A stretch of DNA of 53,986 bases from Paludibacter propionicigenes. Its GTDB lineage: Bacteria > Bacteroidota > Bacteroidia > Bacteroidales > JAFGXI01. The notes under the pieces are model-generated. The model saw nothing but the letters and a program-made list of their open reading frames with translations, was not told the origin of the DNA and ran no database searches. The stretch covers positions 1 to 53,986 of the forward strand of contig DYMG01000001.1 of assembly GCA_020721655.1 (NCBI GenBank), given 5' to 3'. This document shows, piece after piece, positions 9,687-52,545 of this stretch (position 1 is the first letter of the stretch; each line of letters opens with the position of its first letter). Both the position numbers and the translations under genes were made by a program.

Positions 9687-10169
9687 ATGAAAACTAAAAT
9701 ATTAATATCTATAATATTTGCTTTTAGCCTCGTTATTACATCGTGTACAAAAAGCAGTTCAGAATATGTTCCTACAACTGCAAATGTTGATGGCTCTTAT
9801 ATTTACAACAGCACATCTACATACTATAATACTTTAAATGAAGAAGATTTTAAAGGTGCATCTTCTGGTTTTTTAGATATTTATTCAGCTACTTTGACTA
9901 TTACGCCTAACATTGGTTGGGGATATACTCTTCAAATTAGTAATTTGGTTTATCATGGCGATACCATTACATTTAGTATTCCTATGCAACAAATTACTGT
10001 AAATAATAACACTTTTAATGTTACTGGAAATAATAACATTCCAGTTGGCAATTATGGCTCATTTGATGGATTTTACACAAGCAATAAAATTTATTTTGCT
10101 TACAAATCGTCGAATGTTGAAACTTTTGAATGGGTAGAAACTGAATCTGAAGGCACTAAAAAAAATTAG
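9687..10169 (+). CDS. Small lipoprotein of unknown function
   Basis: The 160-residue product has a lipoprotein signal with lipobox VITSC (Cys20) followed by TKSSS. The rest is rich in S, T, N and Y and looks beta-stranded. I do not recognise a family. The gene follows the barrel protein by 25 bases and ends at a strong shared terminator, so the two may form a surface pair. Confidence 0.7.
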   Translation: MKTKILISIIFAFSLVITSCTKSSSEYVPTTANVDGSYIYNSTSTYYNTLNEEDFKGASSGFLDIYSATLTITPNIGWGYTLQISNLVYHGDTITFSIPMQQITVNNNTFNVTGNNNIPVGNYGSFDGFYTSNKIYFAYKSSNVETFEWVETESEGTKKN

Positions 10170-10187
10170 CTCTAAATTGTATATTTT

Positions 10188-10217
10188 AAAAAAGCCTCGC
10201 AATTGTGAGGCTTTTTT
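10188..10217. terminator. Bidirectional terminator between convergent genes
   Basis: GCCTCGC pairs with GTGAGGC (one G-T pair) around AATT, flanked by A and T runs on both sides. It lies between the lipoprotein gene (plus) and the nucleotidase gene (minus). Confidence 0.85.
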
Positions 10218-10219
10218 AT

Positions 10220-11590
10220 TTATTTTTTATCTCTAAAAAATTTAATCAACGCATCGTTCGATTTTAAGTTTGCATTTTTAAATTTACTGTTACCTTTAAA
10301 ATTATACGATTTAACAGTATATGAATTCAAAACCACCTTGTATAACTTATTATTATCTAATACTTTATCAAAAATAACAGAACCAATACTTCCATCTTTT
10401 TTTAATTCCACCTCATATTTTATAGAACCTGTTATAGTTTTCTTTTTTTCAGACGAATACGTTACTTTAATTAAACTAATTATTTCATCAACAGAAAGCA
10501 TTGCTGTCATTAAGTCGTTATTAAATGGATCAACACTATAAATATCTAAAGCTTTAACATTTCCTTTTTTAAGGGTATCAATTCTAATTCCCCCATAATT
10601 CATAAACGATATTTCCGAATTAGTTGTAATTCTAAACGCATCTAAAAAAATATCAACAATTTCTTCTTGCCCAATTAGTGTTTTCCCCAAAAAACCGACA
10701 ACCCTATCTAAATCAGAGTTAATATAGTATTTATCAACAACTTGCCTGATATTAACATCTGTTTTTTGCCTATTTGATATGTTTATAAGCGTATCTTTTT
10801 TATAAACTATTTTATTATTTAAAATTTTAATAGTTAAAACACCTAAATAATTATTATAGCTTCCTGCCTGACAAATTAATGTATTATTAATAACACAAGG
10901 AGTATCTATAATTGTATGAGAATGTCCGCCAATTATTGCATCAATAAAATTGGTTTTTTCGGCTAAAACTTGGTCGGCTTTATAGCCTAAATGAGTTAGT
11001 CCTATTACAATACTTGCACTATCTTTAAGATATTTATATTCTGAAATTGTTTTTATTGGGTCGGTAAATTTAATTCCTGTTAAATTACTTTTAAGTGTCT
11101 CAGGATAACCTTCTTCTGTAATTTTTAATCCTGAAATAAACGCAATTTTACTTTCTCCAATTTTAATTATTTTGTATGGTATTATTTTTTCGATTTCACT
11201 ATTTTGTGTTTCAATATTTGAGCAAATAATTGTAAATTTTGCGTCATTTCTTCGTTTTTGGAGTACTGCTTGTCCGTAATCGAATTCGTGATTTCCTAAA
11301 GCCGATATTTTATAATCTAAAATATTCATTAAATCAATTATTGGATATCCGGGTTCTTTGTATCTATCTACATAAGGGTTTCCCGAGAACAAGTCGCCTG
11401 CAGAAACGAGCATTGAATTTTTATTTGCATTTCTAACACTATCAATAACAGGTTTCATTTTTGCAAATTTATTAATATATCCGTGCATATCGTTTGTATG
11501 CATTATCACAATTGTGCTTGTATCGTTTTGCGAAAAAACGGTTGAAAATAATAATTGAAAAGCTATTACAAAGGTTATTTTATGCTTCAT
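10220..11590 (-). CDS. Periplasmic 5'-nucleotidase-type metallophosphoesterase (UshA/NTE family)
   Basis: The 456-residue exported enzyme has a signal peptide (residues 1-20, TVFSQ). The calcineurin-like metal-binding motifs appear in order: HTNDMHG, GDLFSGN, GNHEFDYG, THLGYKAD and GGHSHT. The C-terminal 5'-nucleotidase domain follows, with the MNYGGIR motif. Such enzymes hydrolyse nucleotides or related phosphoesters in the periplasm; exact substrate unknown. It is probably the last gene of a minus-strand unit after fmt (gap 32 bases). Confidence 0.85.
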   Translation of the reverse strand: MKHKITFVIAFQLLFSTVFSQNDTSTIVIMHTNDMHGYINKFAKMKPVIDSVRNANKNSMLVSAGDLFSGNPYVDRYKEPGYPIIDLMNILDYKISALGNHEFDYGQAVLQKRRNDAKFTIICSNIETQNSEIEKIIPYKIIKIGESKIAFISGLKITEEGYPETLKSNLTGIKFTDPIKTISEYKYLKDSASIVIGLTHLGYKADQVLAEKTNFIDAIIGGHSHTIIDTPCVINNTLICQAGSYNNYLGVLTIKILNNKIVYKKDTLINISNRQKTDVNIRQVVDKYYINSDLDRVVGFLGKTLIGQEEIVDIFLDAFRITTNSEISFMNYGGIRIDTLKKGNVKALDIYSVDPFNNDLMTAMLSVDEIISLIKVTYSSEKKKTITGSIKYEVELKKDGSIGSVIFDKVLDNNKLYKVVLNSYTVKSYNFKGNSKFKNANLKSNDALIKFFRDKK

Positions 11591-13936: not shown

Positions 13937-14734
13937 ATGGATATAACAATATCGGACATTAAAAATATTAGCGAAAAAATACGCGAACATATTGGTATTA
14001 ACATAAATAACTTTGCTCAAGAAGCTTTAAAGAGCAGAATTAATAATATCAATACCACTTACGATATTCGAAATATCGACACATTAATCTCATACATTGA
14101 AAACGGGAAAATAACTCCCGATGATTTTTTACACCATTTTTCGGTTCCTTTTACCGAAATGTTTAGAGACCCTTCAATGTGGCGAAAACTTAAAGACGAC
14201 TTAATATCTAATAGTAAAGACAGATATTTTAAAATATTTTTACCAAGTTGCTCAACCGGCGATGAATATTACTCGCTATTAATTTTATTAGATGAAATTG
14301 GTATTCTAAACTCTTCTCATATTACAGTTTCCAGTTGGTCGAAAAAAACTATAGCAACTATTAAAGAAGCTATTATTCCAGCAAAAAAAATGGAAATAAA
14401 TGTTGCAAATTACAAACGATTTGAAGGAAAAGGCAATATTGAAAGCTATTTTGAGAGCAATAAAATAAAAAATTTACAAAAAAACACTGAGTTTTTAAAT
14501 ATTTCTATATTCGACTCTAAAATGCCAATAAATCAAGACATTATTATTTTCAGAAATAAATTTATTTATTTTACACAAGATACTCAAAACATTGTTCTGG
14601 AAAAATTGCACAATAGCCTAAAAATAGGAGGGAAATTAATAATTGGTATAAAAGAAAATATATTTTTAACAGAATCGACAAACAGCAAATTTGCAAAAAT
14701 TTGTGAAGAAGATCGTATTTACAAAAAAAAATAA
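13937..14734 (+). CDS. cheR: CheR-type protein-glutamate methyltransferase
   Basis: CheR transfers methyl groups from S-adenosylmethionine to glutamates of receptor proteins. The 265-residue protein has the small helical N-domain, then FTEMFRDPSMW, the SAM-binding PSCSTGDEYYS (family: AGCSTGEEPYS) and IIIFRNKFIYF (family: FCRNVLIYF). Several positions differ from canonical CheR. It is the first gene of a long sensory operon and is followed after 3 bases by CheB. No chemoreceptor, CheA or CheW is in the window, so the methylated target is unknown; a membrane GAF protein of the operon is possible. Confidence 0.85.
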   Translation: MDITISDIKNISEKIREHIGININNFAQEALKSRINNINTTYDIRNIDTLISYIENGKITPDDFLHHFSVPFTEMFRDPSMWRKLKDDLISNSKDRYFKIFLPSCSTGDEYYSLLILLDEIGILNSSHITVSSWSKKTIATIKEAIIPAKKMEINVANYKRFEGKGNIESYFESNKIKNLQKNTEFLNISIFDSKMPINQDIIIFRNKFIYFTQDTQNIVLEKLHNSLKIGGKLIIGIKENIFLTESTNSKFAKICEEDRIYKKK

Positions 14735-14737
14735 TTA

Positions 14738-15298
14738 ATGCAATACAAAGCAGTTATAATAGGAGGTAGTGCAGGTAGTTTTCAAGTAGTTACAAAAATA
14801 CTTAATTCTATGCCTAAAAATTTTGATATTCCAATGTTTTTGTGTCTTCACAGACTAAAGCACGTAAGATCGGGGTTTGTTGAGGCATTATCTTTAAAAT
14901 CTAACTTAACAATTGTAGAACCATTTGACAAAGACACCATAAAAAAAGGTATAGTGTATTTAGCACCAGCAAATTACCACATGTATTTCCAATTTGGGCA
15001 AAAATTTAGTTTATCTACCGAACCCTCTGTAAACCATTCAAGACCATCAATAGATTTATCGTTTTTTTCAGCAGCAAACTCATATCGAGATAAACTTATT
15101 GGTATAATACTTTCTGGTGCGAACAAAGATGGAGCACAAGGAATAAAAAGAATTAAAGAACTTGGCGGAACAGTTATAGTGCAAGACCCAAACGATGCTC
15201 AAATAAAAACAATGCCACTATCTGCACTAGAATTAATTACTCCAGACCATATATTAACAACCGAAGGAATTATCAATTTTTTAAACAATGTAAAATGA
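14738..15298 (+). CDS. cheB: Receiver-less CheB-type methylesterase
   Basis: CheB removes methyl groups or deamidates receptor glutamines. This 186-residue protein is the catalytic domain alone. The triad is visible as Ser11 (GGSAGS), His38 (LHRL) and Asp131 (GANKDG), with APANYHM and PLSAL as further family motifs. The normal N-terminal receiver domain is missing, so phosphorylation cannot control it directly. It overlaps the next gene by 4 bases (ATGA). Confidence 0.87.
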   Translation: MQYKAVIIGGSAGSFQVVTKILNSMPKNFDIPMFLCLHRLKHVRSGFVEALSLKSNLTIVEPFDKDTIKKGIVYLAPANYHMYFQFGQKFSLSTEPSVNHSRPSIDLSFFSAANSYRDKLIGIILSGANKDGAQGIKRIKELGGTVIVQDPNDAQIKTMPLSALELITPDHILTTEGIINFLNNVK

Positions 15299-16020
15299 AA
15301 ATATTTTCCACAAAAAACATTATAAACTTAGTATTGACAAGCCTAATATTGTTATTATCGTTTATTATTTTTAAAAATATTGGCACAAGCAGTGTTAATT
15401 CATACTTATTAATTAGCATTAACATTTTAGTGCTAATTATTTTAACAACAAATTTATTTTACAAAACCTTACAAATAAAAGAAATAGAAGTAATAAAAGA
15501 AGTTCTGATTAACGACGAAAACACAGAAAACGAACCTGTTTTTGAAATTATTGAAGACAAATTGGAAAACAAATCAATAAAAATTGAAAATATTAAAACA
15601 GAACAAGATATATCTAAATATATTGAAAATCAATTATTAACAATTTCGAAAAAATTTAATATTGACCAAGCAATTTTTTATTTAAAAGACGAAAATAACA
15701 TATACAACCCAATAAGTAAATACGCTTATTACTCTGACAAAGAACCTGATAGCATAGAAGAAGGCGAAGGTATTTTAGGACAAGCAATAAAAGATAAGAA
15801 AATGCTTCTTATTGACGATATTCCTGACGGATACATTACAATTCTTTCCGGCTTAGGTAAAGGAAATCCAAAAACGCTTTTAATAGTTCCTGCAGTAGTA
15901 GATAATAATGTTGTAGCAATTGCCGAATTTGCATCATTAAAAAGCATAAACGACGAAACAAAAACACTGATACAAGAATCGATTAGTAAAATTGCTAAAA
16001 ACTTAACTAATGTTCATTAA
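15295..16020 (+). CDS. Membrane-anchored GAF-domain protein
   Basis: The 241-residue product has two hydrophobic segments (about residues 8-26 and 35-55) and a cytoplasmic GAF domain (about 100-238) with GEGILGQA and a TLLIVPA core. The GAF resembles that of the phosphatase encoded next door, including an ITxxSG segment. It has no output domain, so it probably acts as a sensor or scaffold for other operon products. The short glutamate-rich linker (about 60-100) could be a substrate for CheR/CheB, but no methylation consensus can be proven. Confidence 0.75.
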   Translation: MKIFSTKNIINLVLTSLILLLSFIIFKNIGTSSVNSYLLISINILVLIILTTNLFYKTLQIKEIEVIKEVLINDENTENEPVFEIIEDKLENKSIKIENIKTEQDISKYIENQLLTISKKFNIDQAIFYLKDENNIYNPISKYAYYSDKEPDSIEEGEGILGQAIKDKKMLLIDDIPDGYITILSGLGKGNPKTLLIVPAVVDNNVVAIAEFASLKSINDETKTLIQESISKIAKNLTNVH

Positions 16021-16031
16021 AATTAAGCAAA

Positions 16032-18659
16032 ATGACTAATAAAAGCATACAAAATATTAATTCTTGCGGGTTGTTTGGCTTATCGTGCAAAACTAGAAAG
16101 TACCCTGTTTTTGGAATGTTTTTTGGGTTTATGTTTCCAATAATTGCGTGGATTTTTGATTTAACTTACAGAAGCTACGGTATAAGCCAAACATGGCAAA
16201 TGCACAAAGAAAACCCTATGCATTTTATTATTGATATGGCTCCACTAATACTGGGTTTTGTAGCTTATTTACTTGCAAAAAAAATACAAAAAGACCAAAC
16301 TAAATTAGATAATTACATAGAAGCCCAAACAACGTATATAGATAATATTTCACATTTTGCTAAAGAAATTGGAAAAGGCAATTTTGATATTGATATTGTA
16401 AAAAACATCAATAAAAACGATGCTCTAATACAAGTTTTAATAAAAATGAAAGACGATTTATCAGCCTCATCATTAAAAGAACAAGAACAAAATTGGGTAA
16501 TAAAAGGACGAGATAAAATTTCAAATATTTTACGAGAATACACCGACTTGGAAGAGCTATCGTACCACGTTTTAGAAACATTAATAAATTACGTTGAAGT
16601 TATTCAAGGCTCATTTTACATTTACGATGAAGACTCTAAAACACTTAAAAACTATGCATCTTATGCTTACAGCAGAAAAAAATTCATAAAGCAAGAATTT
16701 AAAATTGGAGAAGGTCTAATAGGACAAGCTGCTTACGAATTAGCTACAATTTATAGAAATGAAATACCAAACTACTATATTACAATAACTTCAGGTATTA
16801 TTGGCGAAAAAAAGCCTGGTAGCCTACTAATAGTGCCACTTATTAGCGATGAAAAACTTAGAGGTGTAATAGAAATTTCAGCCATTGAAGACCATATTGA
16901 TGAAAAAACAATTAAATTTGTTGAAGGTATTAGTGATATTATTGGACAAACACTATTTAATTTAATAATAAACAATAAAACACAAAAGCTATTAAACGAA
17001 TCGCAACGAATGACCGAAGAACTTCAAGAAAATGAAGAAGAATTGAGGCAAAATGCAGAAGAAATGATTGCAACTCAAGAAGAACTAGAAAAATCGAACA
17101 ACGAATTAGAATTAAAAATTACAGAAGTACAAAACGCACAACTCCGTCAGCACACATTATTAGAAAATGCCTCAGAAGTAATAACCATTTACGACGAAAA
17201 CGGAATAATAAAATACGAAAGCCCATCAGTAGTTAATATTTTAGGATACAACCACGAAGAAACAGTTGGAACACAAGCCCTCGATAGAGTATCTGAAGAC
17301 ACAAAAGACATTGTAAAAAGCAGCCTTGCCGAATTAATAAACAATCCATTTAACCCAATAACAGTAGAATTTCAATATTACAAAAAAGACAATAGCCTAA
17401 TTTGGTTAGAAGCTTTTGGAAGAAACCTAATAGACAACCCAATAATAAACGGAATACTTTTCAATACAAGAGATATAACCCTAAGAAAATTAGCCGAAGC
17501 AGAACAACGAAGACGAGGACAAATGCAAGCATTATCGGAAAATTCGCTCGACCTAATTTTACGCTTAAGCTTAGAAGGAAAAATATATTATATGAATCCT
17601 GTATTTGAAAAATACATTGGAATTAAACCAAAAGAAGTCCAAAATCAACACATTACAGATATTGACATAAATAAAAACTTAACCGAATTTTTCCATAAAA
17701 TCCTAAACACATTAATAAACAACCCAATAAAACAAGAAAACGAATTTGAATTAGACAGTAATTTCGGAAAACGATTTATGTCTGTTAACTCAATACCAGA
17801 ATTTAACTCGAAAAAAGAATTAGAATCTGTATTAATAGTAGCACACGACATTTCCGAAAGAAAAGAAATTGAAATCCAAATAGAAAATACCAATAAAAAA
17901 ATAACCGAAAGCATTAACTACGCTCAAAGAATTCAAGGCTCAATACTACCAAAAACAAACACATTGCAGACCTACTTCAAAGATTCGTTCATTTTCTACA
18001 AACCAAAAGACGTAGTAAGTGGCGACTTTCCGTGGATGTTTGAACGAGAAAACAACATATACTTTGCAGCAGTAGATTGTACAGGGCACGGAGTTCCCGG
18101 AGCATTACTCTCATTCATTGGATATTTTCAACTAAACAACATTGTTGACCATAAAGAAATACTAAACTCAGGTCAAATACTCGACAAACTACACACCGGA
18201 GTTAGAAAAACACTACGTCAGGAAGACGAAGGAGCTAACAGCAGAGATGGAATGGACGTTGCACTTTGCAGATACGACTTATTAAAAAAACAACTACACT
18301 ATTCTGGAGCCCACCGTCCGCTTTACCTTCTTAGAGGAACCGAATTGCAAGAATTTAAAGGCAGTAGAAAAGCAATTGGAGGAATACCACACAAAAAAGA
18401 ACAAGAACAAAACTTTATAAATTACATTATTAACATAAAAAAAGGCGACAAAATATTTATTTTTTCAGACGGATACCCCGACCAAATTGGTGGTGCAAAA
18501 AGAGAAAAATACCAATCAAAACAAATTAGAGAAGGAATAATAAAAAATAATAATTTTACAATGCAAAATTTTTCAGATTACTTTGCAAACGAATTTAAAA
18601 CTTGGAAAAATACTAACAAACAAATTGATGATATACTTATGATTGGCGTTCAATTTTAA
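16032..18659 (+). CDS. Membrane GAF-PAS-PAS SpoIIE/PP2C phosphatase (SiaA-like role)
   Basis: The 875-residue protein has two membrane helices (about 27-45 and 66-84), a HAMP-like linker, a GAF domain (about 165-315), a glutamate/glutamine-rich coiled coil (about 316-375), two PAS domains (about 375-490 and 495-620) and a C-terminal SpoIIE-type phosphatase (about 640-875). The metal-binding motifs are present: VSGDF, DCTGHGVPG, DGMDVALC, FSDGYPDQ and IDDILMIG. The usual SGDFYW reads SGDFPW. By analogy with P. aeruginosa SiaA it should dephosphorylate the SiaC-like protein two genes downstream. It differs in that the sensing part is a cytoplasmic GAF/PAS array. Confidence 0.88.
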   Translation: MTNKSIQNINSCGLFGLSCKTRKYPVFGMFFGFMFPIIAWIFDLTYRSYGISQTWQMHKENPMHFIIDMAPLILGFVAYLLAKKIQKDQTKLDNYIEAQTTYIDNISHFAKEIGKGNFDIDIVKNINKNDALIQVLIKMKDDLSASSLKEQEQNWVIKGRDKISNILREYTDLEELSYHVLETLINYVEVIQGSFYIYDEDSKTLKNYASYAYSRKKFIKQEFKIGEGLIGQAAYELATIYRNEIPNYYITITSGIIGEKKPGSLLIVPLISDEKLRGVIEISAIEDHIDEKTIKFVEGISDIIGQTLFNLIINNKTQKLLNESQRMTEELQENEEELRQNAEEMIATQEELEKSNNELELKITEVQNAQLRQHTLLENASEVITIYDENGIIKYESPSVVNILGYNHEETVGTQALDRVSEDTKDIVKSSLAELINNPFNPITVEFQYYKKDNSLIWLEAFGRNLIDNPIINGILFNTRDITLRKLAEAEQRRRGQMQALSENSLDLILRLSLEGKIYYMNPVFEKYIGIKPKEVQNQHITDIDINKNLTEFFHKILNTLINNPIKQENEFELDSNFGKRFMSVNSIPEFNSKKELESVLIVAHDISERKEIEIQIENTNKKITESINYAQRIQGSILPKTNTLQTYFKDSFIFYKPKDVVSGDFPWMFERENNIYFAAVDCTGHGVPGALLSFIGYFQLNNIVDHKEILNSGQILDKLHTGVRKTLRQEDEGANSRDGMDVALCRYDLLKKQLHYSGAHRPLYLLRGTELQEFKGSRKAIGGIPHKKEQEQNFINYIINIKKGDKIFIFSDGYPDQIGGAKREKYQSKQIREGIIKNNNFTMQNFSDYFANEFKTWKNTNKQIDDILMIGVQF

Positions 18660-18671
18660 AAAACAAATTTT

Positions 18672-19247
18672 ATGGAAGACAAAACATTAAATGATTCATT
18701 CTTAAATGCCGTAATGGAATTTCATAAAACTATGAGAGAGAATGATATTAGCTTAGTTTACGAAGGCGAAATAACTCATAGCATTACAAAAGCCTTTACT
18801 TCGCTAACCGAAAAGAAAATGACCGACGAGGAAGAATCTGGCATTACACAAAGAAAAGTGTTTCACGTAATGGTAGAATGTTTACAAAATATTAGTAAGC
18901 ACGCCGAAAACGGAAACGATTCCTACTCTACCGATGGACGAGGAATTTTTATGGTTCACAAAACAGAAGAACTATACAAAATTACAACAGGAAACCTTAT
19001 TGCCGATGAAAACGTTGAAAACTTAAAGCGTTCATTAGATTTAATAAACAGCCTTAACAAAGACGAACTAACCGAACTTTATAAAAAACAAATAAAAGAA
19101 GGTCAGCTTTCCGACAAAAAAGGTGCAGGTTTAGGATTTATTGATATAGCCCGAAAAACAGGCTCTAAATTAGAATTTAGTTTTAAGTCTGTTAAAAATA
19201 ACATATCTTTTTTTATACTAACAACTATTATTGAACGTAAAAAATAA
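18672..19247 (+). CDS. SiaB-family protein kinase
   Basis: The 191-residue product matches the SiaB family (DUF6272), GHKL-type kinases that phosphorylate SiaC. Visible motifs are an N-box-like VECLQNISKHAEN (about 76-88), GNLI in mid-protein and a G-box GAGLGFIDIAR near the end. There are no membrane segments. It starts 12 bases after the phosphatase and ends 6 bases before the SiaC-like gene. The order phosphatase-kinase-phosphoprotein equals siaA-siaB-siaC. Confidence 0.85.
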   Translation: MEDKTLNDSFLNAVMEFHKTMRENDISLVYEGEITHSITKAFTSLTEKKMTDEEESGITQRKVFHVMVECLQNISKHAENGNDSYSTDGRGIFMVHKTEELYKITTGNLIADENVENLKRSLDLINSLNKDELTELYKKQIKEGQLSDKKGAGLGFIDIARKTGSKLEFSFKSVKNNISFFILTTIIERKK

Positions 19248-19253
19248 TTTAAT

Positions 19254-19631
19254 ATGGAAACTATAAAAATACAAGGCACCGACGATATCCCTAGCGTAGT
19301 ATTAAATGCCGAAAATGGAATATTTCAAATTTCCGGCAGATCAATGCCTGAAGATGTTACCGCTTTTTACGAACCAATTCTTGATTGGATTTCCGAATTA
19401 GGCGAAACATATAAAAACAAAATTGTTTTCGAATTTAAACTCGAATATTTCAATACAGCATCATCAAAATTACTTTTAGACATATTAATGAAGCTAGAAG
19501 AAATGCACGAAGCCGGAAAAGACGTTCTAGTAAAATGGTATTTCCCTGAAGACGATGAAGATATGGAAGAAGCCGGACAAGAATATGCCGACATAGTTGA
19601 AGTGCCTATAGAATTAGTAAGCTACGAATAA
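19254..19631 (+). CDS. SiaC-family (DUF1987) regulatory phosphoprotein
   Basis: The 125-residue product is a typical DUF1987 protein: FQISGRSMPED near residues 24-34 and LEYFNTASSKLLLDI at 63-77. In P. aeruginosa SiaC the phosphorylated residue is Thr68; here the threonine of the same motif is also residue 68. The unphosphorylated form should bind a partner that it activates or blocks. In Pseudomonas the partner is the diguanylate cyclase SiaD; none is encoded here, and the next gene is the TerB/ABC transporter. The product is strongly acidic in its C-terminal third. Confidence 0.87.
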   Translation: METIKIQGTDDIPSVVLNAENGIFQISGRSMPEDVTAFYEPILDWISELGETYKNKIVFEFKLEYFNTASSKLLLDILMKLEEMHEAGKDVLVKWYFPEDDEDMEEAGQEYADIVEVPIELVSYE

Positions 19632-19652
19632 ATTATATACAGCTTTTAGCAA

Positions 19653-22600
19653 ATGAGTGAAGAAATTTTACAAGCCTTAATGCAATTATTTGCAATAATT
19701 GCAAAACAAGACGATGGTGTTGAGAAAACTGAACGAGACTTCGTACTATTATTTCTACGCCAACAAATTTCCGGCTCAAAAGTTGAAGAATATATAAAAC
19801 TGTTCGACGACAAATCAGGATTCAACAAAACAAACTCAGAAACAGAAGACGAAGAACCCACAAAAAAAAGAAAACTAACTTCGGTAAACGATTCTGTTAA
19901 AATTCTAGGAATTTCAAAAAAAATAAACAAAACACTTACTCAAAAACAAAAAGTAATAGTTTTAGTTCGTCTTTTTGAATTAGTAATTTCCGACAAAAAA
20001 TTTACAGAACAACGAATGGCAATAATTAACACAGTTGCCGAAGTATTTAACATAAGTTTCGACGATGTTAAAAACATAGAATCTTTCGTATTTTCTGAAA
20101 ACGTTGAATCACTAATACATTCCGACAACTTACTCATAATATCATCAAACAAAACAGAAAACAGCAACTACTTATCACTTAACATTGACGGAATTGATGG
20201 TGAACTAATTATTTTACAAATACAAGGAACCGACCAATATTTTATTAAATATACCGGTGAATTAGTTTTGTATATTAACGGACTAATTGTTAACGGAAAA
20301 AGAATAAATATTTTCGCAAATGGTAGCACAATAAAACTATCAAAAGGAAAACCAATTTACTATAGCGATATAATATCAAAATTTAAAAAAGACAACAATT
20401 CAATTAACCTTTCGTTTGTTGCAAAAAACATAGAATATAAATTTCCAACAGGCGGATTAGGACTTAGAGATATTAATATTAACGAACGAGAAGGAAAACT
20501 TATTGCAATTATGGGAGCCAGCGGTGCAGGTAAAACCACACTTCTAAACGTTTTATCCGGAATGAGCAAACCATCGTCTGGAACAATAAAAATAAACGGA
20601 ATAGACCTCTACGAAAGCAAAAAAGAACTCGACGGAGTTATAGGGTACATACCCCAAGACGACCTTCTTATTGAAGAACTTACAGTATTTGAAAACCTTT
20701 ATTACAACGCTAAACTTTGCTTTAGAGATAAAAACAAAGAAGAAATTGCCGAATTAGTTAACAAAACCCTAAAAAATTTAGGACTTTTAGAACGAAAAGA
20801 CCTAAAAGTTGGAAACGCACTAAACAAACTAATTAGCGGAGGACAAAGAAAAAGACTAAACATAGCTCTCGAACTTATTAGAGAACCTTCAATACTTTTT
20901 GTTGATGAGCCAACCTCCGGATTATCATCAAGAGATTCGGAAAACGTTATGGATTTACTACGAGAATTAGCCCTTAAAGGAAAACTAATTTATGTAGTAA
21001 TTCACCAACCATCATCAGACATTTACAAAATGTTTGACAAAGTAATAGTTTTAGATACAGGCGGTTACCAAGTATATTACGGCAATCCCATAGAATCGGT
21101 AATGTATTTCAAAAAATTAGACTCGCAAATTAATAGCGACGTAGGCGAATGTTCTATTTGCGGAAGTGTTAACTCCGAACTAATTTTTAACATTATAGAA
21201 GCCCGTGTTGTTGATGAATACGGAATTTACCAAGAAGAACGCAAAGTAAAACCTACCGAATGGTCGGAATATTACAAACAAAATATAACACAAGAAAACC
21301 TATCTGAAATAGCCGAAGAACCACCAAAATCACTTAAAATACCTCGGTGGATAAATCAAATTTTTATTTACCTAAAACGCGATTTTCTATCAAAAATAAG
21401 CAACACACAATACATTGCACTAAATCTTTTAGAAGCACCAATTTTATCTATAATACTTTCATTTATAATTAGATACATTGCAGACCCAAACTCGTCGCAC
21501 TACATATATCGTGAAAACGAAAATATACCACCATATATATTTATGAGCCTTGTTGTTGCACTATTTTTAGGACTAACAGTAAGTGCCGAAGAAATTTTTA
21601 GAGACCGTAAAATACTAAAAAGAGAATCATTCCTAAACCTTAGCAGATCAAGCTATTTAATATCAAAAATTATAATTTTATTTTTCATATCGTTTATTCA
21701 AACCGGACTTTTTGTATTTATAGGCAACTACATATTAGGAATTAGAGATATGTCGTTATACTACTGGCTTGCATTATTTACAACATCAGCTTTTGCAAAT
21801 ATGCTAGGGTTAAATATTTCATCAACATTTAACTCAGCAGTAACAATTTACATAATAATTCCACTTGTACTAATACCTCAAATGATACTTGGCGGAGCAA
21901 TGTTTAGCTTCGAAAAACTAAACAAAACCGTAAGTAGCATCGACAAAGTTCCATTAGTAGCAGAATTTATGACATCTCGCTGGGTATACGAAGCACTTAT
22001 GGTACACCAATTTAAAAACAATAAATTTGAAAAACAATTTTTTAAATTGGAACAAGAAATGAGTGTAGCCAATTTTATGCAAGTTTATTACATACCTGAA
22101 ATAAAAGAAAAATTACAATACTGCTTCGAAAACTTGAACATAAAAAGAGATGACATAGTAAAAAACGTAGATATTAACCTATCTATGATACGAAACGAAC
22201 TCTATAAACAACAAAAAAACAACCCCGAAATAAACAATAACACAATACAATCTATTACTAGAGACTCACTTGGCAGTTACAACTTATTTCTTGTAAACGA
22301 TTACCTCGATAAATTAAATAAAAACTTTGGACTACAATTTCAAAAAACCTACGACAAAAAACAAAAAATGATAGACTACTTTACAGAACAAAAAGGCGAC
22401 ATATTTAACCTAAACAAAGACAATTACTACAATCAAAGCATATCAGACATAGTAAAAAAAGTTTTCGAACAACACAAAATTATTCAAGACAAAGACAATT
22501 TAATTCAACAAATAGACCTAATATATTTAAACCCTACACCATCAAATTTTCTTGACTTTAGAAGCCATTTTTTTGCACCAAACAAATACTTTGCAGGAAA

Positions 22601-22724
22601 ATATTTCGACACATACTACTTTAACATATTTGTAGTATGGATACTAACATTTATTTTTTACATATTCCTTTATTTTGACGTATTTAAAAAAATTTTAGAA
22701 TTTAGATTAAGAAAAAAATTGTAG
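19653..22724 (+). CDS. TerB-like/FHA-like/ABCG-type transporter fusion
   Basis: This 1023-residue half-transporter has an unusual N-terminus: two TerB-like helical halves (about 1-50 and 95-145), then an FHA-like beta segment (about 160-245). The ATP-binding domain has Walker A GASGAGKTT (288-296), signature ISGGQ (394-398), Walker B ILFVDEP (414-420) and switch His451. A CSIC motif (Cys500/Cys503) lies between this domain and the membrane part. Five helices (about 588-608, 626-646, 668-695, 703-725, 728-750) precede a loop of about 230 residues outside the membrane core and a last helix (about 986-1008). The ABCG order (ATPase first) suggests an exporter or envelope machine. It follows the SiaC-like gene by 21 bases. 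Confidence 0.85.
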   Translation: MSEEILQALMQLFAIIAKQDDGVEKTERDFVLLFLRQQISGSKVEEYIKLFDDKSGFNKTNSETEDEEPTKKRKLTSVNDSVKILGISKKINKTLTQKQKVIVLVRLFELVISDKKFTEQRMAIINTVAEVFNISFDDVKNIESFVFSENVESLIHSDNLLIISSNKTENSNYLSLNIDGIDGELIILQIQGTDQYFIKYTGELVLYINGLIVNGKRINIFANGSTIKLSKGKPIYYSDIISKFKKDNNSINLSFVAKNIEYKFPTGGLGLRDININEREGKLIAIMGASGAGKTTLLNVLSGMSKPSSGTIKINGIDLYESKKELDGVIGYIPQDDLLIEELTVFENLYYNAKLCFRDKNKEEIAELVNKTLKNLGLLERKDLKVGNALNKLISGGQRKRLNIALELIREPSILFVDEPTSGLSSRDSENVMDLLRELALKGKLIYVVIHQPSSDIYKMFDKVIVLDTGGYQVYYGNPIESVMYFKKLDSQINSDVGECSICGSVNSELIFNIIEARVVDEYGIYQEERKVKPTEWSEYYKQNITQENLSEIAEEPPKSLKIPRWINQIFIYLKRDFLSKISNTQYIALNLLEAPILSIILSFIIRYIADPNSSHYIYRENENIPPYIFMSLVVALFLGLTVSAEEIFRDRKILKRESFLNLSRSSYLISKIIILFFISFIQTGLFVFIGNYILGIRDMSLYYWLALFTTSAFANMLGLNISSTFNSAVTIYIIIPLVLIPQMILGGAMFSFEKLNKTVSSIDKVPLVAEFMTSRWVYEALMVHQFKNNKFEKQFFKLEQEMSVANFMQVYYIPEIKEKLQYCFENLNIKRDDIVKNVDINLSMIRNELYKQQKNNPEINNNTIQSITRDSLGSYNLFLVNDYLDKLNKNFGLQFQKTYDKKQKMIDYFTEQKGDIFNLNKDNYYNQSISDIVKKVFEQHKIIQDKDNLIQQIDLIYLNPTPSNFLDFRSHFFAPNKYFAGKYFDTYYFNIFVVWILTFIFYIFLYFDVFKKILEFRLRKKL

Positions 22725-22766
22725 CTATTTATTATTTTATTAATTTTACAAAATAATCATTTTTTT

Positions 22767-23678
22767 ATGGTAAATTATTTCAAACAATTAATTTTTATAT
22801 TAGTAATTCCTCTAATATTTTCGTGTGGCAACTCGTCGGAAAACAATAATTCAGACGATTTTTCTGTTCCCGACTCAGTTTTGAATGAAGACGACCCTCT
22901 TATAGTTTCCGAACAAGCTATGGCTGACATTATCTCAAACATATCATCGCCAGTAGAGATGTCGGCACTTATTAAAGAAAGTGGAGTTCAATTTAACTAC
23001 AAATACCTTAACCCAACCGACAACATTGACTCTTACAACACAACATTTAAACAAGCTTTAAACTTAGGTATTTTAGGAGCCGATTTAGGATACCTAAATA
23101 TGTACAACAAAACAGGTACCGTTTTATCTTACATAACATCAATAAAAACACTTGCCGACAATATAAAAGTTGGGCAATTCTTCGATTTTTCTACTCTTAA
23201 ACGATTAGCAACAAATAGCGATAATTTAGACTCTCTAATGTACATTTCTGTTAGCAGTTTCGACCAAATGGACGTATTTTTACGAGAAAATAACCGAAGC
23301 GATGTTAGCACTTTAATTGTTACCGGAGTATGGATTGAGGGTTTATTCCTTGCAACACAAGTAGTTAAAGACGCCCCAAACAAAGAAATTGAAGAAAGAA
23401 TTGGAGAACAAAAATTAATTCTTAGCGACTTACTACTTATACTTAACAACTATAAGAGAGATAAAAAAATATTCGATTTAATAGAAATGATTAATAAAAT
23501 TAAAGAACAATACGCAAACGTAACAATTTCTTACGAAGTTGGAGAACCTGAAGCAGTTGAAGTTGACGGAGTATTAACAATTATACAAAACGAAAAAAGC
23601 ATTGTTAATATAACCCAAGACCAAATTAAAAGCATAACAAAAGAAGTTGAGAATGTGAGAAATTTTGTTGTTAAATAA
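22767..23678 (+). CDS. Lipoprotein of the Sia-like/transporter operon
   Basis: The 303-residue product has a lipoprotein signal with lipobox LIFSC (Cys20) and a serine/asparagine/aspartate-rich linker. The remainder is mostly helical, with an internal region LNLGILGADLGYLNMYNK. I do not recognise a named family. It follows the transporter by 42 bases and may be its periplasmic partner, contacting the transporter's large loop; that is inference. Confidence 0.72.
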   Translation: MVNYFKQLIFILVIPLIFSCGNSSENNNSDDFSVPDSVLNEDDPLIVSEQAMADIISNISSPVEMSALIKESGVQFNYKYLNPTDNIDSYNTTFKQALNLGILGADLGYLNMYNKTGTVLSYITSIKTLADNIKVGQFFDFSTLKRLATNSDNLDSLMYISVSSFDQMDVFLRENNRSDVSTLIVTGVWIEGLFLATQVVKDAPNKEIEERIGEQKLILSDLLLILNNYKRDKKIFDLIEMINKIKEQYANVTISYEVGEPEAVEVDGVLTIIQNEKSIVNITQDQIKSITKEVENVRNFVVK

Positions 23679-23693
23679 TTAGAACTTATAATC

Positions 23694-24122
23694 GTGAAAA
23701 AAATATTTATTATTTTATTAAGCGTAATTGTTTTCGCAGTTGTAGTAAAATCGCAATGTAACGAAACTTTAGTTACTGTTTGTTGTAGTGGTTTAGCAAA
23801 AAATGCAACATACCTGAAAGAGCTTAAAGTAAAACTAAAAGCCAAAGAAGCAGGAAAAAAAGAACCCATAGCAAAATATTCTTTAATGCTAAACAAAGGC
23901 ACTCACTATAGATTTAGTGTTTGCAACGCAAAAGAATTTACCGGAAAAGCTATACTTCAACTATACGATAAAGACCGACTTTTAGGCTCGTCATATATGT
24001 CTAACAAACACTTTCCTGCATTCGACTTCGTTTGCAACAAAACTGCAGTTTACCAAGTACTAATGTCTTTTGAAGACGGACAAGAAGGTTGTGCTGTTGG
24101 GGTTCTTTCTATGATTGAATAA
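23694..24122 (+). CDS. Small exported cysteine-containing protein
   Basis: The 142-residue product starts with GTG and has a signal peptide (residues 1-20, ending VKSQ). The mature part has six cysteines (Cys22, CC at 29-30, then one each in SVCNAK, FVCNK and EGCAV), suggesting disulfides, and a beta-rich fold. No family is recognised. It starts 15 bases after the lipoprotein gene and is the last gene before a terminator, so it is probably the distal gene of the operon. Confidence 0.65.
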   Translation: MKKIFIILLSVIVFAVVVKSQCNETLVTVCCSGLAKNATYLKELKVKLKAKEAGKKEPIAKYSLMLNKGTHYRFSVCNAKEFTGKAILQLYDKDRLLGSSYMSNKHFPAFDFVCNKTAVYQVLMSFEDGQEGCAVGVLSMIE

Positions 24123-24152: not shown

Positions 24153-24187
24153 AAAAGTTGGCTTTTTTAACAATAGTCAACTTTTTT
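24153..24187 (+). terminator. Terminator closing the CheR/Sia-like operon
   Basis: AAAAGTTG (24153-24160) pairs with CAACTTTT (24178-24185), followed by more T. The arm carries the ATG of a longer frame at 24158, which supports the pfkA start at 24206. Confidence 0.65.
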
Positions 24188-49225: not shown

Positions 49226-52200
49226 TTAAAGTTTTATTCCTATTACACAAATATCGTCAATTTGGTCGAAATTTTTTCCTGTGTGGGGGTTTGTATGCAA
49301 TTTCCATTCCTCAATGCTATTATTTAAAATTATTTTTTGCTCGCACATTCTTTTATTGCTCGAATTAACTATTAATGATTTGAATGGCAGATACTTATAT
49401 TTTTTGCCTTTAGGTCCGCCAAATTGGTCGGCATAGCCATCGGTAAACATATATAGTTTGTCGCCTTTATTTAATTGAAAAACATTATTTTGAAATTTAT
49501 TCATAATAACAAAGTGTGCGACAGGCATTTTGTCTTGTTTTATTTCATAAAGTATTTTATTTTTTACATCTAAGTTTTCATCTTCTAATTTTTTTGCAAT
49601 TGTATTTTCTGTTAAAATGTTTAGTTCTTTTTCGGTTAAAATATATAGAGGGTTGTTTGCTCCAGCCCATTGTACTAATTGTGTTTTTAGGTCAATTATA
49701 CATAACGACATATCCATTCCGTCTTTTTGTTCACCATCAACTCCTTTTTGTTTTAAGGCGTTAATAATTCGTTGCCTCAAGGCATCTAATATTTCTGAGG
49801 CTGTAATATTTTTTTTGTCGGCAATTATTTCGTTTAAAAACGACATTCCAAGCATACTCATAAAGGCTCCAGGAACACCATGTCCTGTACAATCTACCGC
49901 TGAAATAATAATTGAGTTGTCTATTTTATATGCCCAATAAAAATCTCCGCTAACAATATCTTTTGGCTTAAATAGTATAAAATGTTCGTTAAAAGCCTCG
50001 TTAATAAACTGTTGTGATGGAAGTACGGCAAATTGAATTCTTTCGGCATAATTTATACTATCAGTTACTTCTTTGTGAATATGAACTATTTCATTTTTTT
50101 GTTGTTCAATTTCGTCTTTTTGTTTTACAACTTCTTCTGTGCGTTCTTTTACAATTTTTTCGAGTTGAATGTTTTGTGCTTTTAGTCTGGCTGTGTATAG
50201 TTTAATGAATATGTATATTAAAAATATAAAAGTTAATGTATATAATAAATAAGCCAAAAACGACCTGTACCAAGGGTTGTTTACTGTAAATGAATATGTT
50301 AAAACTTCACTTTCTGTATCAAAAATTGTTTTAGCTTTAAGCTTAAATGTGTAGTCGCCTTCAAATAGTTTTTGATATTTAACTTCTGTGAGGTTAGTCC
50401 AAGTAGACCATTGTTCGTCGTAACCATCTAATTTATACGAATATAAGGCTTTCTTTCCGTTAAAATTATATAGTGATGAGTAGTTGAATGTTAGTGTGTT
50501 TAATTCGTAATCTACTTCTGTTTTTTTATTATTTTTAGAGTTTAATTTGTGCAAAACTTTGTTTTTTAAACTTGTTATTTGCGATAAAAATATAGTAGGT
50601 TTTTCATTTTCATTAAAATATTTCGAAATGTCAAAAATAATAAATCCTTCGTTTGTGCAAATATTTAGTTTGTTTTTGTTTATTATTAAATTGTTGTAGT
50701 AATTATTATCTATTGCTTTAAATTTATTGCTGGTTAGTTTTTCATTATTTTTACCGTTTAGAATTTTATTATCTACTATTGCAAAAACATCGTTTTTGTT
50801 TTGCAAGTATTTCATTATAACGGCATTATCTGGGATTTTAACACCATCAAACTTGTCAAAATAGCCTCTTAACGATTCTTTTTTATTTTCGCCAGAAGTT
50901 TGTGTTGGAATTACAAATTTTAGAACACCAGAAACTGTTGAAAAATAAATTTTTTCATTTGTTTTAAAGCATCGAGTCCAACCTTCATCGAGTCCATCTT
51001 CGTTTCCAATAAACACATCGTAAATAATGTTTAATTTTTCATCGAAATCAACTTTCCACACACCTGTTGAAGATGTTGCAATCCAAATTGTAAAGTTTTT
51101 TGCATTTTCACTTAACTGAATTTCTGCATCTATAACATCTACTGTTATTTCATTGTTAAATTTATAAACAGACCATTTTTTTTCAAATTTATGAATATAA
51201 AGCCCATTAATACCAATAGAAATTAGTAGTTTCTGAGGTTCAAACCATAATATTTTAGTGGCATCGACATTAGTTATTTGCGAAATTTTATTTTGTTCAT
51301 TCAAACAAAACATTCCGTCTTTTGTGCCAACAAGCAATTCATTGTTCACATTTACAAGCGAATACACTCCTTTGTTAAAGTTTTCTATACGTTTAAAGTA
51401 TGAGAATTCCTGATTTGCATCTTCCACAAAAAGCCCTACCGATGTTGCTACATAAGTTTTATTGTTAAAATTTGCTGCTGTTTGCACATTTCCGTACAAT
51501 CCGTTTTGCTCGTTGTAAAATGATATTGGAGAAGCGTAATTTATTCTACTTATTCCATTTCCTGTAACTGCCCACAAATCGTTATATTTATCTTGCAAAA
51601 TTTGTTTTACATCGTTATCAATCAGTCCGGTTTTTTTGTTAATTTCTTGAATTATTTCCCCGTTTTCATTTATTATAACAATTCCATTTGTTTCGGTATT
51701 TAGTGCTATATTGTTGTCGTTTAGGGGTATTCCGCCCATTATTCTGTACGACATTAATTTGTCTGTATTATCAGATATTATTTTTTCAAATTTATTTTCT
51801 TGCGGATAGTAGTAAAAAATGCCGGCTTCTTGTGTTACAATTATGTGTTTGTTTTTTTGTGAAAACATTCCAAAAATACCTAAATTTTTAAAAATATCGC
51901 TGTTTTTCAGATAATTAAGTTCCCCATTTTTATATTCTAACAATCCCAAATTTCGTTCTCGAACAAATAGTGTATTTTTTGATGCGAATGCCAAATGAAA
52001 TGTATTTTCGGTTTTATAAGTCGGTTTTATGCTTAATATTTTACCATTTTTATATTCAAATATTTGTGTTTGCGAGAAAAAAATTACTGTGTTATTAAAT
52101 AAAAAAATTCGCCAAATTGTTCCAAAATCTTTTTCTTTTTCGGCTAAGTTAGATGATAATGAAATATATTTTTCGTTTCCATCTTTATCAAACCTTATAA

Positions 52201-52522
52201 AGCCAAACTCGTTTGTTGCACCTACAAAAATTTGTTCGCTATTATTTGCTTGTAAAGCTGTTATATATCCCGATGTTGGTGTAATTTTTATAGTTTCCCA
52301 ATTATTTCCATCAAATTGTAGTACTTGGTTGTAATTTCCAAAATACATAAGCCCATTGTTGGTTTGTGTTACAGACCAATTTTGAACGCTCAAGTTTTGT
52401 CCGTATTGTTTTTGTGTGAAATTTTTGACATATTGCTTTTCTTGCTGAGAAATTGCAACATCACAAAACAATATAAATTGTAATGTGATTATAATAAGCA
52501 ATTTATGTGTAGTTTTTTTCAC
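49226..52522 (-). CDS. Periplasmic beta-propeller sensor fused to SpoIIE/PP2C phosphatase
   Basis: The protein of about 1098 residues has a signal/anchor segment, a large periplasmic beta-propeller with two-component-regulator-propeller repeats (about 35-700), a Y_Y_Y domain (about 720-785), one membrane helix (about 790-812), a coiled coil (about 815-865) and a cytoplasmic SpoIIE phosphatase. The metal motifs are VSGDFYW, DCTGHGVPG, DGMDMSLC, FTDGYADQ and IDDICVIG. This is the layout of Bacteroidota hybrid sensors with the kinase replaced by a phosphatase. The TTG-started frame reaches 52543, but a -7 element touches it; the GTG at 52522 (KKTTHKLLIII) gives a better signal. Confidence 0.85.
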   Translation of the reverse strand: MKKTTHKLLIIITLQFILFCDVAISQQEKQYVKNFTQKQYGQNLSVQNWSVTQTNNGLMYFGNYNQVLQFDGNNWETIKITPTSGYITALQANNSEQIFVGATNEFGFIRFDKDGNEKYISLSSNLAEKEKDFGTIWRIFLFNNTVIFFSQTQIFEYKNGKILSIKPTYKTENTFHLAFASKNTLFVRERNLGLLEYKNGELNYLKNSDIFKNLGIFGMFSQKNKHIIVTQEAGIFYYYPQENKFEKIISDNTDKLMSYRIMGGIPLNDNNIALNTETNGIVIINENGEIIQEINKKTGLIDNDVKQILQDKYNDLWAVTGNGISRINYASPISFYNEQNGLYGNVQTAANFNNKTYVATSVGLFVEDANQEFSYFKRIENFNKGVYSLVNVNNELLVGTKDGMFCLNEQNKISQITNVDATKILWFEPQKLLISIGINGLYIHKFEKKWSVYKFNNEITVDVIDAEIQLSENAKNFTIWIATSSTGVWKVDFDEKLNIIYDVFIGNEDGLDEGWTRCFKTNEKIYFSTVSGVLKFVIPTQTSGENKKESLRGYFDKFDGVKIPDNAVIMKYLQNKNDVFAIVDNKILNGKNNEKLTSNKFKAIDNNYYNNLIINKNKLNICTNEGFIIFDISKYFNENEKPTIFLSQITSLKNKVLHKLNSKNNKKTEVDYELNTLTFNYSSLYNFNGKKALYSYKLDGYDEQWSTWTNLTEVKYQKLFEGDYTFKLKAKTIFDTESEVLTYSFTVNNPWYRSFLAYLLYTLTFIFLIYIFIKLYTARLKAQNIQLEKIVKERTEEVVKQKDEIEQQKNEIVHIHKEVTDSINYAERIQFAVLPSQQFINEAFNEHFILFKPKDIVSGDFYWAYKIDNSIIISAVDCTGHGVPGAFMSMLGMSFLNEIIADKKNITASEILDALRQRIINALKQKGVDGEQKDGMDMSLCIIDLKTQLVQWAGANNPLYILTEKELNILTENTIAKKLEDENLDVKNKILYEIKQDKMPVAHFVIMNKFQNNVFQLNKGDKLYMFTDGYADQFGGPKGKKYKYLPFKSLIVNSSNKRMCEQKIILNNSIEEWKLHTNPHTGKNFDQIDDICVIGIKL

Positions 52523-52545
52523 AACAGTTGTTTTTGTTTTCAAAA

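Follow-up and report, generated by a model that had tools for sequence, protein, structure and literature searches.

The operon considered here lies in a 53,986-nucleotide stretch of Paludibacter propionicigenes DNA (assembly GCA_020721655.1, contig DYMG01000001.1, positions 1 to 53,986), and "the window" refers to that whole stretch. Nine co-directional genes on the + strand (13937-24122) encode, in order, a CheR-like protein (13937..14734), a receiver-less CheB methylesterase (14738..15298), a short membrane-anchored GAF protein (15295..16020), a membrane GAF-PAS-PAS-PP2C phosphatase of 875 residues (16032..18659), a SiaB family protein kinase (18672..19247), a SiaC family phosphoprotein (19254..19631), a TerB-FHA-ABCG transporter of 1023 residues (19653..22724), a lipoprotein of a multi-copy family (22767..23678) and a small exported protein (23694..24122). 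An original prediction, made from the sequence alone, had named these families in this order, and every operon domain it named except FHA is backed by Pfam and NCBIfam. The eight intergenic gaps are, in order, 3, -4, 11, 12, 6, 21, 42 and 15 base pairs (bp). A terminator-like hairpin (24153..24185, + strand) with an 11-bp stem and a following U run (-10.5 kcal/mol, z -3.1) closes the operon; in a sigma-70 scan, promoter-like matches were not in excess over shuffles.

The center of the operon resembles the Pseudomonas aeruginosa SiaABCD system, in which SiaA is a phosphatase, SiaB a kinase, SiaC a phosphoprotein and SiaD a diguanylate cyclase (PMC7647112, PMC8457831). The SiaB protein scores well over its NCBIfam subfamily cut-off (NF038262, 173 vs 85 bits, 3e-51), matches DUF6272/SiaB at 7e-42, and has P. 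aeruginosa SiaB (6kko_A) as its sole PDB match. SiaC likewise exceeds the PF09345 cut-off (139.6 vs 24.5 bits, 5e-41); its best PDB matches are 6kko and 6k4f, with N67-T68 in register (T68 against 6kko_C), and two engineered proteins match more weakly. The Thr68 position is Thr, within an N-T motif, in 74 of 79 aligned rows and Ser in 3 of 79. The membrane phosphatase that adjoins SiaB combines GAF, two PAS and SpoIIE/PP2C domains; the sole PDB match of its phosphatase domain is SiaA-PP2C (6k4e, 3e-31), and its residues 606-874 resemble SiaA (1.5e-45) with a score under the NCBIfam equivalog cut-off. Judged by the SiaB and SiaC families, Thr68 and the neighboring PP2C phosphatase, the block is identified as a partner switch of the Sia type, in agreement with what had been predicted. 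It shares with SiaABCD the kinase and phosphoprotein families, a SiaA-like PP2C C-terminus, the A-B-C-target gene order and the Thr68 position. Unlike SiaABCD, it has a phosphatase with GAF-PAS-PAS domains and extra CheR, CheB and GAF genes, its proteins score under the SiaA, SiaB and SiaC equivalog cut-offs (155.9 vs 700, 83.2 vs 225 and 88.1 vs 150 bits), and the slot of the target gene is taken by the TerB-FHA-ABCG transporter. Outside the operon, the window also encodes a sensor protein of 1105 residues whose C-terminal PP2C domain resembles that of SiaA (49226-52543, - strand).

A further difference from SiaABCD is that no GGDEF protein (PF00990) was found in the whole genome, which is 92% complete; the prediction had noted this absence only for the locus. 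GGDEF was also absent from all 36 of the order's high-quality genomes, and a lone match came from a genome (G005) that is 7% contaminated. Cyclic di-GMP (c-di-GMP) therefore cannot be the output here, and an unlinked GGDEF protein, considered as the target of SiaC, was rejected on the same counts.

The transporter that takes the place of the cyclase is recognized by TerB (4e-6), ABC_tran and ABC2_membrane, with a match to ABCG1/ABCG2 in the PDB. Its cytoplasmic regulatory head (19653..20438, + strand) is modeled as a TerB helical bundle (about residues 1-150) followed by an FHA-fold sandwich (about residues 160-230). The AlphaFold model of residues 1-262, built with 48 homologues, has a predicted local distance difference test score (pLDDT) of 88.8. 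Foldseek, with no match reaching E 0.001, aligned it with the TerB-like P. gingivalis protein PG1108 (PDB 2h5n, TMt 0.58-0.60) and with several FHA domains (probability 0.99-1.00, TMt about 0.5). Pfam TerB was reported in 44 of the 48 homologues, and Pfam FHA does not appear in the list of reported families; the region first called FHA-like thus has no Pfam match, yet folds as an FHA sandwich. Within the sandwich only G202, N209, G224 and Y236 are nearly invariant (motif positions were read by eye). Since no Arg, Ser or His column is nearly invariant, the FHA-fold domain appears to be degenerate and to lack a recognizable phosphothreonine-binding signature, and it is for this reason unlikely that phospho-SiaC is read by a classical FHA site. 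A canonical FHA reading of phospho-SiaC was accordingly set aside as not supported.

As an ABC exporter with an N-terminal FHA fold, the protein has the defining feature of Rv1747-like transporters, and M. tuberculosis Rv1747 is its nearest transporter precedent. Rv1747 is an FHA-FHA-ABC transporter that works with PknF and Rv2623, and phosphorylated Rv2623 binds its FHA I domain (PMC5549992, PMC3908365). Both are ABC exporters with a cytoplasmic N-terminal FHA fold, and control of Rv1747 comes from a partner that is phosphorylated on Ser/Thr or from a kinase of its operon. They differ in the head, which here joins TerB to a single FHA fold that is probably degenerate, and in the regulators, which are SiaB, SiaC and PP2C here versus a Hanks-type kinase and a universal stress protein there. 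The helical bundle matches TerB proteins (PF05099; PG1108) in both sequence and fold, but here TerB is fused to an ABC transporter and lacks a Ter operon context. Between the ATPase and membrane domains lies a CxxCG motif (window 21150-21164, residues 500-504) that is invariant in 18 homologues. A Bacteroidota-type transporter also occurs in a record titled Planktophila lacus (L095), probably a mis-binned contig.

Conservation was assessed in 130 Bacteroidota genomes (41 comprising this genome and 40 relatives, plus 89 further genomes of the phylum) and, for gene arrangements, in 80 named loci plus relatives. The full operon is present in eight relatives, in six families of the order; further carriers are named members of the Bacteroidales and Cytophagales, Flexithrix dorotheae and Marinilabiliaceae bacterium JC017 among them. 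Two main arrangements ARRANGEMENTS were found: an upstream type (30 loci), with SiaB-SiaC ahead of the transporter and in its orientation, and a convergent type (16 loci, in Bacteroidales and Flavobacteriales, with Marinifilum breve as an example), with SiaC-SiaB lying after a related transporter and pointing toward it; one locus is divergent. The upstream type has SiaB at 28 loci, PP2C at 27, CheR at 23 and CheB at 22, with a GAF-domain gene nearby at 26, and usually the lipoprotein and exported genes too. Of the convergent loci, 13 have SiaB and eight the lipoprotein, while PP2C, CheR, CheB and GAF genes are found at none. SiaB, SiaC and the TerB-ABCG transporter are the core common to all arrangements, and for that reason the best explanation is a Sia-type partner switch that has an ABC exporter as its output in place of a diguanylate cyclase, with SiaC acting on the TerB-ABCG protein. 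We would give this explanation a probability of about two in three.

By homology, the SiaA-like phosphatase and the SiaB kinase would determine how far SiaC is phosphorylated at Thr68. In its unphosphorylated form, SiaC would bind the TerB/FHA-fold head of the transporter and switch its activity, and phosphorylation of SiaC by SiaB would release it. The exporter may have the lipoprotein and the last, small exported protein as partners in the periplasm or outer membrane, or as clients, and the CheB, GAF and CheR-like proteins may act as accessory inputs of the upstream-type operon. Contact between SiaC and the transporter, whether that contact turns the transporter on or off, what is exported and any methylation are inferred parts of this scheme.

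In the set of 41, the 20 genomes with SiaC hold 61 transporters; 24 of these, spread over 17 genomes, have a SiaC gene no more than about 700 bp away, where chance would give 0.61. The adjacency of SiaC, SiaB and TerB-ABCG that the original prediction had set as its own test is conserved in Bacteroidota, in both arrangements. In the set of 41, SiaC is present in 20 genomes and the TerB head in the same 20, a weak match in G008 aside. Among the further 89, two (G085 and G089) have both, adjacent in each, and one (G119) has SiaC beside a histidine kinase and no head. Overall, 22 genomes have both, one SiaC only, none TerB-ABCG only and 107 neither (Fisher p 5e-24, a value that ignores shared ancestry). 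The SiaC proteins of linked loci fall into two clades, one for each arrangement (support 100/100, in a tree that excluded long-branched rows and L128, whose orientation is exceptional), and upstream-type transporters form one clade (support 100, FastTree) with L097 inside and L128 outside, among the convergent-type transporters. In a fuller, quick SiaC tree the L128 SiaC falls in the convergent group and that of L097 in the upstream group; both orientation exceptions still pair SiaC and transporter of matching clades.

Several points count against a switch acting on the transporter. The co-occurrence counts are not phylogenetically independent, and 37 of the 61 transporters have no linked SiaC. 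This genome's own second TerB-ABCG (contig C29, L016 6715-11246, - strand), which is 46% identical and has its own lipoprotein and exported protein, lacks adjacent Sia genes. SiaC proteins also appear to serve other partners, because genomes carry more SiaC copies than transporter-linked ones (four here). The unlinked majority of transporters is what would be expected if the genes were co-transcribed only for a shared condition, with SiaC acting on an unlinked protein and never contacting the transporter. That explanation seems distinctly improbable, for the linkage occurs in differing orientations, including convergent genes that could not share a transcript, the SiaC and transporter partners are clade-matched, and the genome holds no GGDEF target. 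Of the original proposal, a connection of SiaC with the transporter is supported by the conserved linkage; the FHA part finds no recognizable phosphothreonine signature to rest on.

The genomics also leaves unsettled whether the switch acts on the transporter or the transporter on the switch, a further point on the opposing side. In transporter-coupled sensing, the TerB/FHA head would report flux or substrate to SiaB and SiaC, and the switch would act elsewhere. Gene linkage and co-occurrence fit both directions, and one of the four SiaC paralogues in the genome stands beside a hybrid histidine kinase. The upstream operon, however, already has a sensory input in its GAF-PAS-PAS phosphatase and holds no other effector, and in the one characterized system SiaC acts on the adjacent protein (PMC8457831); the transporter is unlikely to be the input. 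As to the other SiaC copies, L015 (G000:C86, 8150-11651) has a TPR-hybrid histidine kinase directly followed by SiaB-SiaC and then FabG. At L014 (G000:C105, 1396-4769), a tandem SiaB and SiaC lie on one strand between a MacB/FtsX-like permease and a small membrane protein, and this is the second SiaC beside an ABC-type permease in the genome. SiaB proteins of 366-380 residues at L014, L100 and L102 resemble tandem SiaB domains.

Because they are missing from the convergent arrangement, the CheR, CheB, GAF and PP2C genes look accessory to the core, and the CheR-like, CheB and GAF proteins, which only operons of the upstream type contain, look like auxiliary inputs. The CheR-like protein (PF01739, 4.5e-23) has FSVPFTEMFRD, CSTGDE, VSSWS and IFRNK where canonical CheR has TVNTTELFRD, CSTGQE, ATDIN and CRNV. 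In Bacteroidales operons the canonical S-adenosylmethionine (SAM)-binding motifs, whose residues we take to be those generally assigned, are replaced, and the operon CheR of this group is probably a degenerate (dead) methyltransferase. Activity of the window CheR was for the same altered motifs held doubtful. CheR is canonical in four operons (Cytophagales L096, L100 and L101 and the unclassified Bacteroidia bin L099), and many Bacteroidales have a second, canonical CheR just upstream. CheB consists of the methylesterase domain only (PF01339, 9e-47); aligned to 3sft, it keeps an intact Ser/His/Asp triad, whose motifs do not vary across the 23 rows compared, a set that includes two duplicates. 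Two canonical CheR genes occur elsewhere in the genome, one beside another PP2C protein; at L200 (G000:C76, 6963-11168) CheR lies 78 bp before a propeller-PP2C phosphatase, a second CheR-PP2C neighborhood. The suggestion that CheR and CheB tune a membrane sensor is doubtful for the window CheR with its replaced SAM-binding motifs, although CheB has kept its triad and the genome has the two canonical CheR genes. The pair resembles a chemosensory CheR/CheB pair in this triad and in the canonical CheR that adjoins the operon in many relatives, and differs from one in the probably degenerate operon CheR of Bacteroidales, in a CheB without a receiver domain and in a genome in which no methyl-accepting chemotaxis protein (PF00015) was found. 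An EE-x-x-A-T motif in the phosphatase coil gives a weak hint of a methylation site; it is present in the window and several relatives, eroded in others, and found at L065, which has no CheR or CheB.

The short GAF protein (GAF_2, 1.4e-8; membrane segment judged by eye) is kept in most upstream-type operons, with a GAF-domain gene near 26 of the 30 transporters of that type, and the known target, SiaD, is likewise a signaling protein. SiaC might then switch this protein, or the lipoprotein/exported pair, with the transporter merely following. Convergent loci, however, keep SiaC and the transporter without the GAF protein, half of them without a nearby lipoprotein, and such a target is very unlikely. 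Neither the lipoprotein nor the exported protein has a family in Pfam or NCBIfam. The lipoprotein model is mostly helical, no structure in the PDB matched it below E 0.6, and assigning a function from its fold was abandoned on that account. Its family is found in the same 20 of 41 genomes as SiaC, a weak match in G017 aside, and its pairing with the exported protein is conserved in relatives and in the paralogous pair at L016 (exported protein at 9871-10299). Three further lipoprotein-family copies in this genome (G000 C70, C55 and C107) lie away from any TerB-ABCG, and relatives likewise carry stand-alone lipoprotein/exported pairs, whose neighbors resembled housekeeping genes and were uninformative.

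The original prediction knew of no described system of this composition, and none was found in the literature searched, which omitted most subscription papers and so provides weak evidence; DUF6272, the SiaC family by name and the TerB/FHA/ABC combination were not found there either. DUF1987 (SiaC-type) proteins in general have been proposed to modulate adjacent proteins (eLife, SiaC-SiaD, PMC8457831). They are widespread, and in the literature searched a single paper names the domain and deals with one target, the Pseudomonas diguanylate cyclase. The operon would be a new variant, a partner switch of the known Sia kind with a new output. An exporter as a second kind of target would, if true, show the switch to be a general protein regulator, in a clean system whose genome, having no GGDEF protein, excludes c-di-GMP as the output, and TerB domains would gain a testable role as SiaC docking sites. 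It is tentatively suggested, at somewhat less than even odds, that Bacteroidota have a c-di-GMP-independent class of switches in which SiaC-type phosphoproteins, docked on a TerB head, directly gate ABC exporters, and in which distinct SiaC lineages are paired with distinct transporter lineages. If so, the paired lineages would let one genome run several insulated switch-exporter pairs.

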